Assembly: GCA_019931185.1 (NCBI GenBank)
Contig: JAINDK010000050.1
Location: 62,001-126,000, forward strand
Source of the DNA: Bryobacter sp. CoA8 C33
GTDB lineage: Bacteria; Acidobacteriota; Terriglobia; Bryobacterales; Bryobacteraceae
Direction of reading: 5' to 3'
DNA: 64,000 nt
In this document: positions 7,854 through 14,414 of the stretch, one piece after another
Layout of the letters: every line of letters begins with the position of its first letter
How positions within the stretch are numbered: position 1 is the first letter of the stretch
Program-made: the position numbers and the translations under genes
Notes under the pieces: generated by a model
What the model was told of the DNA's origin: nothing
Seen by the model: the letters and a program-made list of their open reading frames with translations, nothing else
Database searches by the model: none

Positions 7854-8006
7854 TTATGCTTTCTCCTGCTTGATTGTGCGCTTCAAGGTCTCCACCTGCT
7901 CGCTCAGCTTGCGTCCTCGCGCCACCAGGCTCACCACGTAGAGCGCGAGTATGAGCCACGCCGCCGCGAAGCCATAAAACATGTAAGTAAAATTGCGTTG
8001 ATCCAT
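7854..8006 (-). CDS. ccmD: CcmD, small heme-exporter accessory protein
   Basis: A 50-residue ORF, easily missed because of its size. It starts MDQRNFTYMFYGFAAAW, continues through one hydrophobic segment (about 9-28) and ends in a basic amphipathic tail rich in Lys and Arg. That is the usual CcmD plan: one membrane span, Tyr/Phe-rich start, charged C-terminus. CcmD helps release holo-CcmE from the CcmABC complex. Position directly after ccmC, 37 bases downstream, supports the call. Confidence 0.88.
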   Translation of the reverse strand: MDQRNFTYMFYGFAAAWLILALYVVSLVARGRKLSEQVETLKRTIKQEKA

Positions 8007-8043
8007 GACAGTCTCCCGACGGGCTTTTTTAAGCTAACACAGC

Positions 8044-8730
8044 TCAGCCGGCATAGACGGCGCGCCGCAAGCCCTCGATTTCCCGCCGGCTTTCCTCCAT
8101 CCGGAAGCGCACGGCCACGAGCACCACCGTCAATAAAAGCAGCGCGAACCAGTTCTGGTAGATCATCGCTTCCATGGCCGGATCGGTGTTTCCGCCTCCG
8201 GTGCGAAAACTGAGGATCGCCCCGGGGTGTTGGGTGCGCCACCAATCAATCGCTTTATAGGTAATCACGACGCTGGTGAAGGCGAAAATGCTGAGCACCC
8301 CGGTGACGCGCATCCTCTCTCCCGGATCGTCGATCATGCTGCGCATCATCAGATAGCCGGCATAGATCAAGGCCGTGATAAACGCCCAAGTCAGGCGCGC
8401 ATCCCAGGTCCACCAGATCCCCCAAATGATCTTGGCCCAGATCATACCCGTAGCCAGACCGATGGCGGTGAAGGCCAAGCCCACCTCGGTTGCCGCGACG
8501 GCGAGGGAATCTCCGCGGAAATTCTTTTTCCAGATGGCATAACCGCTCGCCAGGCCGCTCGCGAAGAAACAGGTGAAGCAACTGAACCAGCTGGGAATGT
8601 GAAAGTACATGATCCGGTAGATCGCCCCTTGCGCGGCCTCATCGGGCAGCACCATGAACATCTGATAGAGATTGCGCACGAGAAACGCCGCGCTCGCCAA
8701 GCCTACCGTCAACAGAATTTTGTCACTCAT
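8044..8730 (-). CDS. ccmC: CcmC, heme exporter/CcmE heme-loading protein
   Basis: 228 residues with about six membrane spans and the tryptophan-rich WWD motif WGIWWTWDARLTW, flanked by conserved His residues (MYFHIPSWF and the His late in the protein). CcmC presents heme to CcmE in the periplasm. The ATG at 8730 (MSDKILL) is chosen; an extension of 36 residues upstream reads the 3' end of ccmB in another frame. It lies 26 bases after ccmB. Confidence 0.95.
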   Translation of the reverse strand: MSDKILLTVGLASAAFLVRNLYQMFMVLPDEAAQGAIYRIMYFHIPSWFSCFTCFFASGLASGYAIWKKNFRGDSLAVAATEVGLAFTAIGLATGMIWAKIIWGIWWTWDARLTWAFITALIYAGYLMMRSMIDDPGERMRVTGVLSIFAFTSVVITYKAIDWWRTQHPGAILSFRTGGGNTDPAMEAMIYQNWFALLLLTVVLVAVRFRMEESRREIEGLRRAVYAG

Positions 8731-8756
8731 ACACTCGTTCCTCAGTCTACTAGGCC

Positions 8757-9431
8757 CTAGTCGACCAAAATCGTATCCATCAACCCCAGCGCCAGCGCCG
8801 TGAAGATAATGTCGAAGCCCACCAGCAGCCGCACCCAAATCAGATCATCACCCTCGGGCGGCTTGCCTAGCGCCACGACGTTGGTCAACTGCATGGCCCC
8901 CGCAAGAGCGGGAATGATCATCGGATAAACGATCACGGGCAGCATCAGCTCGCGCAACCGAAGATTGACCGTCATCGCCGCAAACACGGTTCCCAGGAGC
9001 GAGATCGCCCAGCTCGTCAGCAGACAAACCAACAACAACCATTGCGGCAGCAGGAATAAGTTGATGTTGTACAGCAGGCTGAACACAGGCAGACACACGG
9101 CTTCCACCGTCAGGATGAACACGAGGTTCGCCATCGCCTTGCCCAGCAGCAGTGCCGAGGCGGGTACGCGGCTCGCGATCAGGATATCGAGACAGTCGTT
9201 AGACTGCTCGCGGGCAAAACTCCGGTTGACCAGCAGCACGCCGGAAAAGGCAAACAGAATCCACAGCAGTCCGCCGGTGATTTCACGAATCTGCTCGCTC
9301 GTTGGATCAAAAGCAAAGCTGAACAGAATCAGAACCACGAGGGCGAAGGCCAGCGCCGCGTTCAACGCTTCTTTGCCGCGAAACTCCATCCGCACGTCCT
9401 TGACGCACACCAACCAAGCTTGCCGCAGCAT
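8757..9431 (-). CDS. ccmB: CcmB, ABC transporter permease of heme-exporter complex
   Basis: 224 residues, nearly all hydrophobic, with about six spans; FRGKEALNAALAFALVVL and SFAREQSNDCLDIL are typical CcmB sequences. It forms the membrane part of CcmAB, whose ATP hydrolysis releases heme-loaded CcmE from CcmC. The start is taken as the ATG at 9431, which forms a TGATG overlap with the ccmA stop. A longer start at 9464 would add 11 residues translated from within ccmA. Confidence 0.95.
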   Translation of the reverse strand: MLRQAWLVCVKDVRMEFRGKEALNAALAFALVVLILFSFAFDPTSEQIREITGGLLWILFAFSGVLLVNRSFAREQSNDCLDILIASRVPASALLLGKAMANLVFILTVEAVCLPVFSLLYNINLFLLPQWLLLVCLLTSWAISLLGTVFAAMTVNLRLRELMLPVIVYPMIIPALAGAMQLTNVVALGKPPEGDDLIWVRLLVGFDIIFTALALGLMDTILVD

Positions 9432-10093
9432 CAATTCGCTACCCCATAGGTGCGATAAATCCACTTGCTGTCCCCCAGCATCTCCTCCGGCCGCGGCCCG
9501 TTGTAGGCGAGTTTGCCTTTCTCAAGAAACAAGATGTGAGTCGCCAACTGCATCGCCTCGGGAATTTGATGCGTCGACAGGACAATTGTCGCCCCCCGGC
9601 CCAGCGCCTCAGCCAGCAGCCACTGCAAGAGGGCCACGGCTTTATCGTCGAGCGAGGTGAAGGGCTCATCGAGCAGGAGCAAATCCGGCTCTCCCATGAA
9701 GGTGCGCGCGAGCGCGAGCCGCTGCCTCATGCCGCGGGAGTATTCGCGCAACGGCGCCTCGGCTACTTCCTTCAGCCGCACCTTCTCGAGCCAGGCGTCC
9801 ACGTCCCCACCGCGGGGGTGCAGCGACGCGAAAAAGTTCAGATTTTCGCGGGCGCTCAATTCGTCGTAAACGCCGATGCCATGCCCAAGTAAACTCACCC
9901 GACCACCAATGGTCAGCGTGCCCTCGGTCGGCCGGCTCAGCCCTGCCATCATTTCGAGTAGAGTCGTCTTGCCTGCTCCGTTTCGCCCCAACAGCGCCAC
10001 GCAGGATCCTGGCTCAAAGGAAAAGCTCAAATTCCGCAGCGCCGGAAAGTGGCCGAAGAATTTCGAAATCCGCTCAGCCTTGAGCACGCTCAT
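9431..10093 (-). CDS. ccmA: CcmA, ATP-binding subunit of heme-exporter complex
   Basis: 220-residue ABC ATPase: Walker A GRNGAGKTT, signature YSRGMRQRLALAR (the RG variant of LSGGQ common in CcmA), Walker B LLLLDEPF and switch His in STHQ. The start ATG 10093 lies 20 bases inside the end of the upstream gene; a longer 10123 start is possible but adds nothing homologous. It partners with CcmB through the TGATG overlap. Confidence 0.94.
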   Translation of the reverse strand: MSVLKAERISKFFGHFPALRNLSFSFEPGSCVALLGRNGAGKTTLLEMMAGLSRPTEGTLTIGGRVSLLGHGIGVYDELSARENLNFFASLHPRGGDVDAWLEKVRLKEVAEAPLREYSRGMRQRLALARTFMGEPDLLLLDEPFTSLDDKAVALLQWLLAEALGRGATIVLSTHQIPEAMQLATHILFLEKGKLAYNGPRPEEMLGDSKWIYRTYGVAN

Positions 10094-11051
10094 GGCTTGT
10101 GCCTTTGCCCCACAGGTAGACAAACCCGATTGCCAACGCCAGCATCGTCAGGCCGACAATCCACCATTGCCGTTCGCTCAGCTTGGCGGGGATTGCCTGC
10201 GGCTCGGGCATTGCTGCCTCGTCGGCCTCGAGTGCCCGCAGGGAACCGGTACCGGTGACATCCAGATCGAAATCAGCTTTGGTCAGCGCGTAGACTTCCG
10301 CCTGGGTTTGTGGCTCGGCGCCGAGATCCTCAAGCCCCGCTCCTGTCAACTTCACGCCGCTGGGGGTGACCAGCCGCGTCTGCCCTTCCTTGTCGTTGAT
10401 CGGGTGCAGGATCCGGCCCTTGAACTTGCCGGGCGAGGTAAATGGCAGACTATATTGCAGATCAAACCGCGTTTCGCCTGGCCGGATGGCGAAATCAATC
10501 TTATAGACATTGGCGGGACCGGCGGGCTCAGCCTCCTTCTTCAGGGGCATGTTGCTCGGTCCGCTTACCCGAACCGACAGGCTTTCCTTGGCTTCCGGCG
10601 CCAGATAAAAACGATACGTACCATTGACCGGATCGAGATAACTCGTCTTGCCGCCATTGCGGAAGATGATACTCTCGTTAATCGCCAGCTTGCCGTCCCC
10701 TGGCTCCACCAGCATCATGTGCTGGACGATTTTGGTGTCGCCCGGTTGGCGCGAAGTGTCGAAAACCTCGATCTCGACGCCTTTGCCGGTCTCCCCCGGA
10801 CGCAGCATCTTGTTGTAAGTCACGCCGCCGGAGACGGCTTGCAGCAGAAGCGGCCCATCGACTCCTTGCGCAAACTCAAACTTCCCATCCGCTCCCGATC
10901 GCGCATTACCGGCCGGCATCATGCCGCCATCGCCCAGCCGCATCAACAGCAGCGGAACATCCGCCGCGGGCTTGCCGGTCGTGCGGTTGACCACGGTGCC
11001 GTCGATCGCCGCGAGTGTCGTCGCGCAAGCCAACCACAACAGAATTCTCAT
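10074..11051 (-). CDS. Ccm-cluster protein with carboxypeptidase-regulatory-like domain and C-terminal membrane anchor
   Basis: 325 residues: a signal peptide (MRILLWLACATTLAA), then a CarboxypepD_reg-like beta domain (about 17-95: DGTVVNRTTGKPAADVPL ... GKFEFAQG), a long periplasmic beta-rich region (about 100-260), and one C-terminal span near 288-307 (WWIVGLTMLALAIGFVYLW) followed by a short basic tail. It lies between the short ccmI and ccmA and overlaps both, so it is built into the operon. It has no counterpart in the proteobacterial ccm operon. A periplasmic scaffold or apocytochrome-handling role is only inference. Confidence 0.75.
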   Translation of the reverse strand: MRILLWLACATTLAAIDGTVVNRTTGKPAADVPLLLMRLGDGGMMPAGNARSGADGKFEFAQGVDGPLLLQAVSGGVTYNKMLRPGETGKGVEIEVFDTSRQPGDTKIVQHMMLVEPGDGKLAINESIIFRNGGKTSYLDPVNGTYRFYLAPEAKESLSVRVSGPSNMPLKKEAEPAGPANVYKIDFAIRPGETRFDLQYSLPFTSPGKFKGRILHPINDKEGQTRLVTPSGVKLTGAGLEDLGAEPQTQAEVYALTKADFDLDVTGTGSLRALEADEAAMPEPQAIPAKLSERQWWIVGLTMLALAIGFVYLWGKGTSHERAQG

Positions 11052-11332
11052 TTCGCCTTCCCCAACGATGCTTTCAGCGCATCGATATCGGCCAGCACCA
11101 GCGCCAACTCCCCCTGCAGGTTCTGCTTGGCCTTGGCGTAATCCTCGTCGCTCAACTTGCCCAGGCGCAGTTCAAACTGTAAATCCCGCAAGTTTTCATA
11201 AATTCGCGCCTTGCGTTCATCGTGCACCTGAAAGGGGTTTTCCGGGGGCTGGGGCAACAAATCGCTGTCGCGTATGGACAGCGCCAGCATCACTACCACA
11301 ATGGTGAGCCCAATGGCGATTGCGATAATCAT
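11048..11332 (-). CDS. Short CcmI-like protein
   Basis: 94 residues: an N-terminal membrane span (about 2-19) and a helical coiled region ERKARIYENLRDLQFELRLG followed by KLSDEDY. This is the region following the first span of CcmI/CycH, where the family has a similar E-x-L-x-D-L-x-x-D-x-x-x-G-K-L-s pattern. The large TPR part of CcmI is absent, so this would be an abbreviated CcmI. It overlaps the next gene by ATGA and sits 8 bases after ccmH. Confidence 0.72.
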   Translation of the reverse strand: MIIAIAIGLTIVVVMLALSIRDSDLLPQPPENPFQVHDERKARIYENLRDLQFELRLGKLSDEDYAKAKQNLQGELALVLADIDALKASLGKAK

Positions 11333-11340
11333 GGCGCTCT

Positions 11341-11820
11341 CTAGGAGTCCATCCGTTCGAGTTCGCGGGCTGCCGTGCTTTCATAAGCCGCCAGTTGTTC
11401 GGGAGCCAAGAGTTTATCTTCAGCCGCCGCGGCAGGGTTTTGAAACCGCTTCACATACACCAGCAGTGCGATCAGCCCCAGCGCCATGGCAAAGCCTGGC
11501 ATCAGCCAGCCCAGCAACCCAAAGCCCTCGGCCTCCGGTTCCGCCAGAGCTTTTTTGCCTTGCTCTTTCACAAAGCGGCCCACGATATTCTGGTCGCTTG
11601 CTCCCATCGTCTGCAATTGCTTGATCTTTTGCCGCGCCGGAAAGGCGTAGCCGCAAGCGAGCATCGAACAGTCTCCCACTGAATTGCGGCAACTGCCGCA
11701 CAAGCAGGCCAGCTTCATCCCGACGCGCTTGATCTCGGGGGACATGAAGTCCATCGGATTTTGCGCAATCGAGATCGCCGCGAGCACGCTGGTCAGCAGG
11801 AGCAGCTTAACTCTTGGCAT
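11341..11820 (-). CDS. ccmH: CcmH-type cytochrome c maturation protein
   Basis: 159 residues with a signal peptide, a Cys-rich periplasmic domain and a C-terminal span (about 105-124, FGLLGWLMPGFAMALGLIA). The motif LACLCGSCRNSVGDC (C39, C41, C44, C51) plus C56 replaces the LRCxxCQ of proteobacterial CcmH; the CGSC pair is the likely redox site for reducing apocytochrome thiols. Its end overlaps nothing; its start lies 14 bases inside the end of ccmF. Confidence 0.85.
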   Translation of the reverse strand: MPRVKLLLLTSVLAAISIAQNPMDFMSPEIKRVGMKLACLCGSCRNSVGDCSMLACGYAFPARQKIKQLQTMGASDQNIVGRFVKEQGKKALAEPEAEGFGLLGWLMPGFAMALGLIALLVYVKRFQNPAAAAEDKLLAPEQLAAYESTAARELERMDS

Positions 11821-13831
11821 GGGCCTCCACGGCGCGGCGGCCGGTAACGGCGCCGACTACTTCGGTCCGCGCGTAGCTGTACTTGATCTTGGAGGGGACC
11901 AAGCAGATGATGGTACCAAAGAGCACCACCCAGAAGCCCACCCAGATCCAGCTCACGAGGGGAAACACATAGGCTTGGATCACCGCGCCCTGACCCTGCG
12001 TCGCCATCGCGGCGAAGTTCAGAAACAAGTCTTCATTCAATCGCCGCCGGATGGCAACTTCGCTTGCCGGCTGGCGGCTTGCCTTGTAGATGCGCCTCTC
12101 CGGCTCAAGCGTGTCGATCTTGCTGCCGTCGACATAGACGTCGATAGCTGCCTTCATCCAGGCATAGTTATCGTTTTCGCCGTCTTTGATGTCGCTGATC
12201 TTCAGGTCATAGCGGCCAATGCGGAAGCTCTGCCCCATCGAAGCCTCGTGGACGCTGTCCTTGTTGAAGGCCGCGCCGGTGAAGCCGATAAACATCACCA
12301 CCACGCCCATGTGCACCAGATAGCCGCCGTAGCGCCGGGTGTTGCGATGAGTCAATTCCACGGTGGCCCGCAGGAAATTCATCTTGTCTTTCTCGGCAAT
12401 CGCTGCCGCGCCTTTGAAGAACTCGGTGCCAATCGTTACCGCCACGAACAGACAGAGGCCAAAGCTCAACAGGGCATATTCATTGCGGATGCCGGCGCCG
12501 AACAGTCCGGCCATGAGCACGGCCATGGAGACGAGCGGCCAGAGGAAGTTGCGCTTCAGGCTGTCGGCCGAGCTCCGCCGCCAGGCCACCAAGGGGCCGA
12601 CGCCGGTCAGAAAGAGCAAAAAGAGTCCAATTGGAATGTTGACACGATTGAAGAATGGCGCGTCCACGCTGATCTTCTCCCCGGTCACGGCCTCGCTGAT
12701 AACGGGAAACAGAGTCCCCCACAAGACGGCAAAACAGCTTGCCAGCAGCACGAGGTTGTTGAACAGAAAACTGGATTCACGGCTGACCACGCTTTCCAGG
12801 TGCGACTCGCTTTTCAGGAATTCGAGCCGGTCGAGAATCAGCCACACTGTCGCCGCGATGCCGATCGCCAGGAACGTGGCGAAGTAGTTGCCGATCGAGG
12901 AAACGCCGAAGGCATGCACGCTTTGCACCAGGCCGCTGCGCGTCAGCATCGTGCCGAAGATGCACAGGAAGAACGTGGCGGAGACCAGTACCATGTTCCA
13001 CACCTTCATCATTCCCTTCTTTTCCTGCATCATCACGCTGTGCAGAAACGCCGTCGCCGTAATCCAGGGCAGCACGCTCGCGTTCTCCACCGGATCCCAG
13101 GCCCAATAACCGCCCCAGCCGAGCACATAGTAAGCCCAGCCCATGCCCAGGACGATCCCCACGGTCTGGAACAACCAGGTCACCAGCGTCCAACGCCGCG
13201 TCGTATGGATCCATTCATCTCCTGGCTGCCGGGTGATCAGGGAGGCGATGGCGAAGGCGAAGGGCACGATGAAGCCGACATAGCCGAGATAGAGCATGGG
13301 CGGATGGATCGCCATCGAGGGGGTTTGCAGCAGCGGGTTCAAGCCCTGCCCATCGGGCATGGCGATGATGCCGCGTCCAATCGCCCATACACGGAACGGC
13401 GGCACGACGAAGTTGTTCAGGATCAGAAAGAAAACCTGCGTCGACATCAGCACCCCGATCACCCAGGGCAGCATTGTTTTGTATTGCTTACGATTCGTGA
13501 ACACGACCACGGCGCCGTAGCAGGCCAGGATCCAACTCCAGAACAGCAAGGACCCCTCTTGCCCGCCCCACCATGCCGTGATCTTGTAAAGCAGCGGCAT
13601 CGCCTTGTTGGCGTGCATCGCTACATATTGCAGCCGGTAGTCCCCTTCGATCAGGCCGTAGAGCAAGATTCCACTGGCCGTCGTGATCAACAACCAGACC
13701 AGGTAGACACCGCGCCGTGCCGCCGCCACCAGAAACATGTTTTTTTTCCATGCCCCGGCGATCGAACTGAACAACGCAAAAAGCGCTACACAAAAGGCCA
13801 GTAATAGCGAAAGAGCGCCAACGTTTTCCAT
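11807..13831 (-). CDS. ccmF: CcmF, heme lyase core subunit
   Basis: 674 residues with about 15 spans. The WWD-type motif GWGGYWAWDPVENASVLPW is present, as are FWSWILACYGAVVVFTN near the N-terminus and TMLTRSGLVQSVHAFG, all typical of CcmF. It takes heme from holo-CcmE and attaches it to CxxCH apocytochromes together with CcmH and CcmI. Slightly longer than the usual 630-660. It lies 24 bases downstream of ccmE. Confidence 0.95.
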   Translation of the reverse strand: MENVGALSLLLAFCVALFALFSSIAGAWKKNMFLVAAARRGVYLVWLLITTASGILLYGLIEGDYRLQYVAMHANKAMPLLYKITAWWGGQEGSLLFWSWILACYGAVVVFTNRKQYKTMLPWVIGVLMSTQVFFLILNNFVVPPFRVWAIGRGIIAMPDGQGLNPLLQTPSMAIHPPMLYLGYVGFIVPFAFAIASLITRQPGDEWIHTTRRWTLVTWLFQTVGIVLGMGWAYYVLGWGGYWAWDPVENASVLPWITATAFLHSVMMQEKKGMMKVWNMVLVSATFFLCIFGTMLTRSGLVQSVHAFGVSSIGNYFATFLAIGIAATVWLILDRLEFLKSESHLESVVSRESSFLFNNLVLLASCFAVLWGTLFPVISEAVTGEKISVDAPFFNRVNIPIGLFLLFLTGVGPLVAWRRSSADSLKRNFLWPLVSMAVLMAGLFGAGIRNEYALLSFGLCLFVAVTIGTEFFKGAAAIAEKDKMNFLRATVELTHRNTRRYGGYLVHMGVVVMFIGFTGAAFNKDSVHEASMGQSFRIGRYDLKISDIKDGENDNYAWMKAAIDVYVDGSKIDTLEPERRIYKASRQPASEVAIRRRLNEDLFLNFAAMATQGQGAVIQAYVFPLVSWIWVGFWVVLFGTIICLVPSKIKYSYARTEVVGAVTGRRAVEAHAKS

Positions 13832-13855
13832 GGCTTGATACTTCTCCAGTGGCCG

Positions 13856-14317
13856 CTAGCTGCGGCTCGGCTTCGGATTATTGTAGGCCGGCTCGGTTCC
13901 CGGCTTCACTTGGCCCGGTTTCGCTTCGTACTTCGAAGCACACTTGGCTTGGATCTTGTTCGCGTTGAAGGTGCCATCGGCGCTCATGTGCCCGTCGGCC
14001 AGAGCCTGCGCGTCATCGCGGAAGGTATCCGGCAGCGGATCCATACCCGTATAGGTCACCTTCAGCATCTGTCCTTTACTCTGCCCGTCCTGCTGCATCA
14101 GGTGGAAGCTGACCTCGCGGCCATTACGATGGATCGAACCCTTCACCACATCCCCGCCGACACGCAGTCTCTTACCCTGCGCCTTAGCGCCCATCTCCTG
14201 CAATTCCGCCACAGTCTTGTAGTAGGTTTTCGTCTCATTGACGCCGCCGACAGCAAGCCAGGCAAGAGTGACCACAACAATGCCGATTACGAGGCCGAAT
14301 TTCATGTAGGGCTTCAT
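13856..14317 (-). CDS. ccmE: CcmE heme chaperone, CxxxY variant
   Basis: 153 residues: N-terminal anchor (about 6-25), then the OB-fold CcmE domain (VGGDVVKGSIHRNG ... VTYTGMDPLPDTFRDD). At the heme-attachment site the sequence is QAKCASKYE, i.e. C126-x3-Y130, where the classical protein has HxxxY. Cys-type CcmE is known from a variant System I in archaea and some sulfate reducers. The ATG at 14317 is chosen because AGGAG lies 6 bases upstream; a longer reading to 14389 lacks a ribosome site. First gene of the ccm cluster. Confidence 0.93.
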   Translation of the reverse strand: MKPYMKFGLVIGIVVVTLAWLAVGGVNETKTYYKTVAELQEMGAKAQGKRLRVGGDVVKGSIHRNGREVSFHLMQQDGQSKGQMLKVTYTGMDPLPDTFRDDAQALADGHMSADGTFNANKIQAKCASKYEAKPGQVKPGTEPAYNNPKPSRS

Positions 14318-14414
14318 CACCATCTCCTCTTGCCACAATGATATCGCCAAACGAGAATGATTGCGGTCAGACAGTAAACGAATTTTCATTTACCGTTGGG
14401 GGCCGCCCGGCGAG

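Follow-up and report, generated by a model that had tools for sequence, protein, structure and literature searches.

A cytochrome c maturation operon of Bryobacter that pairs a cysteine-type CcmE with a five-cysteine CcmH homologue

The DNA analysed here, a 64,000-nucleotide stretch of Bryobacter sp. CoA8 C33 (contig JAINDK010000050.1, positions 62,001 to 126,000; hereafter the window), carries a cluster of cytochrome c maturation (Ccm, System I) genes on its minus strand at 7854-14317. The genes follow each other in the order ccmE, ccmF, ccmH, X, Y, ccmA, ccmB, ccmC and a ccmD-like frame, and are taken as one operon. The operon is a typical representative of a widespread, little-described branch of System I in which the heme chaperone CcmE has a cysteine in place of its heme-binding histidine (Cys-CcmE, as opposed to His-CcmE) and is accompanied by a matching type of CcmH. 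The ccmE gene (13856..14317) encodes 153 residues and matches PF03100 with 89.1 bits (cut-off 24.6). Its motif QAKCASKYE puts Cys126 (codon 13940..13942 by translation) at the heme-binding histidine position and Tyr130 behind it (C126xxxY130). The canonical HxxxY is absent, with CASKY instead, and the operon is therefore not a canonical System I. The start codon at 14317 is preceded by AGGAG; an alternative in-frame ATG lies upstream at 14389. The heme-linking column is cysteine in 29 of 29 aligned CcmE rows, which were selected as Cys types, and the closest named relatives come mostly from Bryobacterales and other Acidobacteriota assemblies. By analogy, heme would be attached covalently to Cys126. 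A profile search of the source genome (5.05 Mb, 138 contigs, 97.66% complete) returned this single CcmE match and no second CcmE, of the HxxxY type or otherwise.

The gene at 11341..11820, whose start overlaps the end of ccmF, encodes a CcmH homologue, as judged by profile, relatives and fold. It matches PF03918 with 43.9 bits (cut-off 25) and is the only match to that family in the source genome; all 81 aligned relatives match it at E values up to 0.01. A profile of the CcmH family aligns with the solved CcmH domains 2hl7 (E 1.5e-9) and 2kw0 (E 2.4e-9). The AlphaFold model (predicted local distance difference test score, pLDDT, 87.9) ends in a long C-terminal helix, probably a membrane anchor. 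It superimposes on 2hl7 with Z 8.0 and on 2kw0 with Z 7.5 (next-best 3.7); a Z near 8 may reflect a common helical arrangement, and the fold is counted jointly with the profile match. Foldseek matches for the model are weak (E 0.036-0.039). Misannotation of the gene as ccmH was considered and rejected on the combined profile and fold evidence. A sequence-only reading of this DNA had assigned Cys126 to the histidine position and had placed a CcmH-type protein with a CGSC site and three further cysteines next to ccmF. Both assignments stand, and neither of the findings that it named against itself, a second CcmE with HxxxY in the genome or a protein other than CcmH at 11341-11820, turned up.

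The protein has exactly five cysteines (residues 39, 41, 44, 51 and 56), and translation and the alignment of relatives place them in a single site, C39xC41GSC44-x6-C51-x4-C56 (11653..11706), in which CGSC spans residues 41-44. LACLCGSC replaces the canonical LRCxxC active site, which is absent; we therefore treat the protein as a homologue of CcmH whose active site is of another type. Proteins of this type have CxCG(x)C...C...C where canonical CcmH has LRCxxCQ...ADS, and aligning the profile to 2hl7 puts their fourth cysteine at the serine position of ADS. CxC is present in all 44 CcmH that share a locus with a Cys-CcmE in a first set. Among 117 CcmH rows, in which a few loci are represented more than once and the first two cysteines are fixed by selection for CxC[GSPK], the third cysteine is found in 116, the fourth in 117 and the fifth in 116. 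In 81 of these rows C39 and C41 (both by selection) are invariant, as are C44 and C51; C56 is conserved in at least 90%, and the mean column identity is 29%. The spacing CxCG(x)C...C...C resembles that of metal knuckles, and the model has short extended segments around the motif (DSSP E at residues 37-38 and 47). Within the same operon and branch, four or five of the cysteines might thus hold zinc or another metal as a structural site, with CcmH presenting the apocytochrome without thiol chemistry. We regard such a site as possible, if somewhat unlikely; against it, passages of the available literature describe canonical CcmH as a thiol protein (PMC12285233, PMC10663686).

The other products complete the System I gene set, in that profile searches of the window proteins find CcmE, CcmF and CcmC together with CcmA and CcmB. 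The cytochrome c synthase CcmF (11807..13831) has a WWD-type stretch, WGGYWAWDPVENASVLPW, and matches PF16327 (215.6 bits) and PF01578 (131.1 bits). X (11048..11332) is a membrane protein of 94 residues that resembles the N-terminal part of CcmI without its tetratricopeptide repeats (TPR); its match to TIGR03142 (E 0.0096) lies below the cut-off. Y (10074..11051), recognised by its conservation in the operon, has 325 residues with beta domains and a C-terminal helix, probably a membrane anchor (AlphaFold pLDDT 90.9). CcmA (9431..10123) is the ATPase (TIGR01189, 134.5 bits, cut-off 131.6), and CcmB (8757..9464) matches PF03379 with 123.9 bits. CcmC (8044..8838), whose start codon is uncertain, matches PF01578 with 89.4 bits and TIGR01191 with 119.8 bits, below the cut-off of 186. 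The last frame (7854..8006) encodes a small membrane protein of 50 residues, called CcmD-like from its position behind ccmC, which is that of the annotated CcmD on a Metabacillus plasmid; no family search was run for it. The source genome has one match to a DsbD/CcdA-type protein. Since ResB has no match there, the genome gives no sign of System II, which was rejected as the true maturation route.

The sequence-only reading had called for a survey of the CcmE motif against CcmH across Acidobacteriota. Our survey covered 297 genomes of the phylum; CcmE was matched in 186 of them and CcmH in 146. CcmE was typed in 146 of the 186, and the remaining 40 are untyped. The typed set was made up of the 30 best-scoring loci, a spread over families, 20 genomes chosen for lacking a CcmH match and genomes with CcmH apart from ccmE; CcmH domain matches below 15 bits to our own profile were dropped from the pairing counts. 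In these genomes the CcmE residue tracks the CcmH type. All 20 genomes with His-CcmE have a canonical LRCxxCQ CcmH, which was found in none of the 126 with Cys-CcmE. The latter comprise 84 with a five-Cys CcmH, 18 with another form only (APCC..H in 16, SP[FY]C in 2) and 24 without a PF03918 match; among the 84, two also have APCC..H, two SP[FY]C and two an unclassed CcmH. The association of a Cys-rich CcmH with a Cys-CcmE thus holds as a pattern; the adaptation of this CcmH to a Cys-linked heme that the sequence-only reading suggested is conceivable. Four more genomes in the table lack CcmE typing: G031, G156 and G290 (no CcmE match) and G217 (CcmH region alone). CPSKY (88 genomes) and CASKY (33) are the dominant motifs on the Cys side. 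A set of 80 loci, Cys by search pattern and mostly from Acidobacteriota, gave a CcmH in reach in 64, all five-Cys, and none within the stretch examined in 16, several of them at contig ends. Five Acidobacteriota genomes have two CcmE matches each (G069, G110, G148, G254 and G286).

Other forms of CcmH occur beside the five-Cys type. CcmH-like proteins of the APCCWxxxLxxHxS type or similar (L084, L086, L102, L104, L106, L108, L110, L112, L215 and L232-L235) lie apart from the ccm operon in the Acidobacteriota loci examined, often in genomes with Cys-CcmE and no five-Cys CcmH. With our own profiles, no ccm genes were found in the 8-kb surroundings of seven of eight such Acidobacteriota proteins; L112 has a CcmA-like ATPase nearby. 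Eight frames near L084, L104 and L110 have Pfam names outside the ccm families or, in three of the eight, no name. The APCC..H proteins may substitute for the five-Cys CcmH. The form SP[FY]CxGxxLxxC has two cysteines about six residues apart and no CxxC (L218-L220, L222, L252, L253, L267, L268 and L273). A hybrid site, CxxC followed by two more cysteines (LYCPVCPNTPLDVCETLAC), is seen in loci of the genomes G017 (L275) and G031 (L276).

Gene order follows the same division. Of 128 loci with ccmE, ccmF and ccmA, 121 are Cys, many of them gathered by likeness to a Cys-type CcmE, and 7 are His. Among the 121 Cys loci, 99 carry X together with CcmH, separate or fused to CcmF; 84 of the 99 also have Y, and the usual order in the Cys branch is E-F-H-X-Y-A-B-C. 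In the seven His loci A-B(-C) stand ahead of E-F-H, and Y is found in none. X is present in 110 of the 121 Cys clusters, those of Bacillota included. Its similarity to CcmI is weak, confined to the N-terminal part and below the cut-off, also for the Bacillota homologue (TIGR03142, E 0.00016), and 94 residues leave no room for a TPR domain. Y matches no Pfam family at the cut-off; among the matches listed, a fold search gave only distant beta-domain proteins (M1 aminopeptidases and others; template modelling scores by query ~0.25-0.36). X and Y are conserved operon partners of the Cys branch. A deep group with Cys-CcmE (L118 and L120-L126), mostly with the motif KCPSKYQ, has A, B and C before E-F; CcmH, X and Y were not found there, and the group resembles the described CcmH-less System I*.

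In 15 loci (L063-L065, L067-L070, L073, L074 and L077-L082; families f15, f24, f29 and f46) a single frame of 821-975 residues encodes CcmF with CcmH joined to its C-terminus, a fusion with one origin on the CcmF tree. The fusion is good evidence that the five-Cys CcmH acts with CcmF. It also bears on a rival reading, in which the CcmH-like gene would be a paralogue of the NrfF type that serves a single special cytochrome and not the general CcmH. Of the NCBIfam models, that of NrfF (TIGR03147) scores best with the five-Cys relatives L042 and L072, though it stays far short of its cut-off; the window CcmH has no NCBIfam match. Such a paralogue is very unlikely, given these fused relatives and a gene that is the genome's only PF03918 match and adjoins its only ccmE.

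A thin sample of other phyla was also examined. Two Bacillota plasmids (Cytobacillus firmus NZ_CP107028 and Metabacillus NZ_CP088246) carry a Cys-CcmE with KCPSKY and ccm operons in the order E-F-H-X-Y-A-B-C; they are like the window operon in gene order and in Cys-CcmE. In the motif region of their CcmH (PPGCTDSMTADYC) there are just two cysteines, whereas the window CcmH has five. A plasmid search with the window CcmH returned no other records. Behind the cluster, both plasmids (L216 and L217) have a TlpA-like gene, and quinol oxidase genes lie nearby in L216. In the phylum of G298 (contigs including Krumholzibacteriia and Latescibacterota) CcmH was found in 7 of 80 genomes (five-Cys in three, SP[FY]C in the other four), and in the phylum of G300 in 5 of 7, all PCC..H; all nine genomes of these two phyla searched for CcmE have the Cys type. 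Twenty-two plasmid records have a CcmE match. Six Pseudomonadota plasmid stretches from among them are all His, and CcmH is present in five, in each case with LRCxxCQ. Four CcmE loci on viral contigs are Cys by search pattern, and CcmH was found in none of them.

On a CcmF tree of 88 rows, the His/Cys label changes once (support by the Shimodaira-Hasegawa-like approximate likelihood ratio test, SH-aLRT, 83), as it does under a mixture model with 51 of the rows (SH-aLRT 76). CcmE residue and CcmH type separate at the same single branch. Two Acidobacteriota His lineages (families f21 and f25/f40/f47) fall on the Pseudomonadota side. The tree gives no direction to the change. With a single split, the pairing does not amount to a series of independent events and may reflect inheritance as a block; one change on the tree likewise rules out a test by independent contrasts between CcmE residue and CcmH type. 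The older rule that a Cys-CcmE goes without CcmH, reportedly the subject of Allen's 2006 paper by its title, would favour a mixture by horizontal transfer, a Cys-CcmE put into a classical CcmH-bearing operon. The CcmF, the CcmH type and the gene order of the window all belong to one Cys branch, however, and the rows closest to the window CcmF come from the same family, which makes such a transfer extremely improbable. The sequence-only reading, which had relied on that rule and called the system a mixture of both types, is not upheld here. The rule itself was given up in 2011; according to passages of a review of that year, CcmH is present in about a third of the bacteria that have a Cys-CcmE (PMC3601427).

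Within the Cys branch of the CcmF tree, presence of the five-Cys CcmH changes at least 10 times and presence of any CcmH at least 5 times while CcmE stays Cys, counts that incomplete genomes may inflate. CcmH thus seems to have been repeatedly lost or replaced, and a Cys carrier therefore probably does not require the five-Cys CcmH. These changes bear on a functional coupling that would add to the explanation we prefer: the five-Cys CcmH would be required for resolving or transferring the thioether between Cys126 and heme, either through an attack on the heme vinyl or by maintaining Cys126 in its reduced state. The strict pairing in the typed genomes and the near-invariant cysteines in a fast-changing protein speak for such a need. 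We consider it unlikely, however, given the single split behind the pairing, the changes in CcmH just described and a Desulfovibrio Cys-CcmE operon that, with neither CcmH nor CcmG, produces cytochromes c in E. coli, as reported in the same review passages (PMC3601427). CcmH may act directly in cleaving the bond between heme and Cys126, although its apparent losses argue against this being a necessity.

We consider it likely that the window carries a System I operon, ccmE-F-H-X-Y-A-B-C-D, of a Cys-CcmE branch whose CcmH has a modified thiol site. This reading draws on gene content, residues, the pairing in typed genomes, the single split and several losses or replacements of CcmH. A number of points weigh against it. 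The typed genomes were picked non-randomly, so the survey counts are not frequencies. A second CcmH match is unread in nine typed genomes (G008, G010, G019, G128, G153, G169, G191, G215 and G242), and G017 is a partial exception in having the hybrid CcmH besides its five-Cys one. The PF03918 search counted only an unlinked protein in G289, where our own profile found a five-Cys CcmH beside ccmE and ccmF; the 24 genomes without a match may therefore include misses. Support for the His/Cys split is moderate, with long branches present. Other phyla were thinly sampled, with Chloroflexota and the first described sources of Cys-CcmE, Desulfobacterota and archaea, outside the survey. No CcmG was found among the eight operon genes scanned; a genome-wide search for it was not made.

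The chemistry of the operon proteins we infer from characterised Ccm systems. CcmABCD would load heme onto Cys126 of CcmE, and CcmF would bind holo-CcmE, reduce the heme and join it to the apocytochrome. CcmH would remain the thiol partner of CcmF with a different active site, most likely a thiol-disulfide partner that reduces the apocytochrome CXXCH or presents it to CcmF. Its extra cysteines possibly form a second redox pair, the structural metal site being the main alternative. It is likely that one old split fixed the CcmE residue, the type of CcmH and the gene order together, and that they have mostly been passed on since then as a block, by inheritance or transfer. A bolder version, which we think unlikely, has two old forms of System I in which carrier residue and thiol site were swapped jointly, histidine going with LRCxxC and cysteine with five thiols, and in which the five-thiol CcmH may make or break the heme-Cys bond. 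A branch with a retained, near-fixed five-Cys CcmH, sometimes fused to CcmF, is a natural system in which to ask whether CcmH thiols help to break that bond, and sister lineages in which CcmH was apparently lost provide a control for the role of these thiols. Our results also correct the view that a Cys-CcmE and a CcmH are mutually exclusive, and they point to two operon partners, X and Y, without assigned function.

Among the matches listed, the accessible parts of the open-licence literature searched mention neither the five-Cys CcmH type, its CxCG(x)C...C...C site nor its strict pairing with Cys-CcmE; the CcmF-CcmH fusion and the partners X and Y are likewise unmentioned in this literature, which does not include the founding papers Allen 2006 and Goddard 2010. 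A search of open-licence papers for Acidobacteria with CcmE and CcmH, or with cytochrome c maturation and ccm genes, was empty. In the parts available, most Cys-CcmE carry CPSKY (25 of 36), and the mechanism that releases the stable heme-cysteine bond on CcmE is called not obvious (PMC3601427). The cysteine of CcmE is required in Methanosarcina, and archaea are described as lacking CcmD, CcmH and CcmI (PMC9084895, a 2022 paper, in part); excerpts of a 2015 paper give CcmH homologues in one archaeon, Ferroglobus (PMC4429474). LRCXXC is named as the conserved CcmH motif in the part seen of a 2025 paper (PMC12285233).

The Cys-CcmE System I of Desulfovibrio and archaea is termed System I* in the passages available (PMC3601427, PMC9084895). 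The window operon resembles it in having CcmA, CcmB, CcmC, CcmE, CcmF, a CcmD-like frame and a Cys-CcmE with the cysteine-for-histidine exchange in CxxxY; it differs in its five-Cys CcmH homologue, X and Y. The absence of CcmH in the 2006 definition of System I*, no longer held characteristic according to the same review passages (PMC3601427), does not describe the window operon. With the canonical System I of Pseudomonadota (E. coli, Rhodobacter) the operon shares CcmA-F and a protein of the CcmH fold behind CcmF, whereas the canonical system has a His-CcmE, LRCxxCQ CcmH, CcmG and a TPR-bearing CcmI. The canonical order, seen on three plasmids, is A-B-C-D-E-F-G-H-I, in contrast to E-F-H-X-Y-A-B-C-D in the window. 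The window CcmH is like the solved PF03918 domains (2hl7, 2kw0) in the helical fold of its model, its long C-terminal helix and its place behind ccmF, and differs from them in its site, CxCG(x)C...C...C instead of LRCxxC...S.
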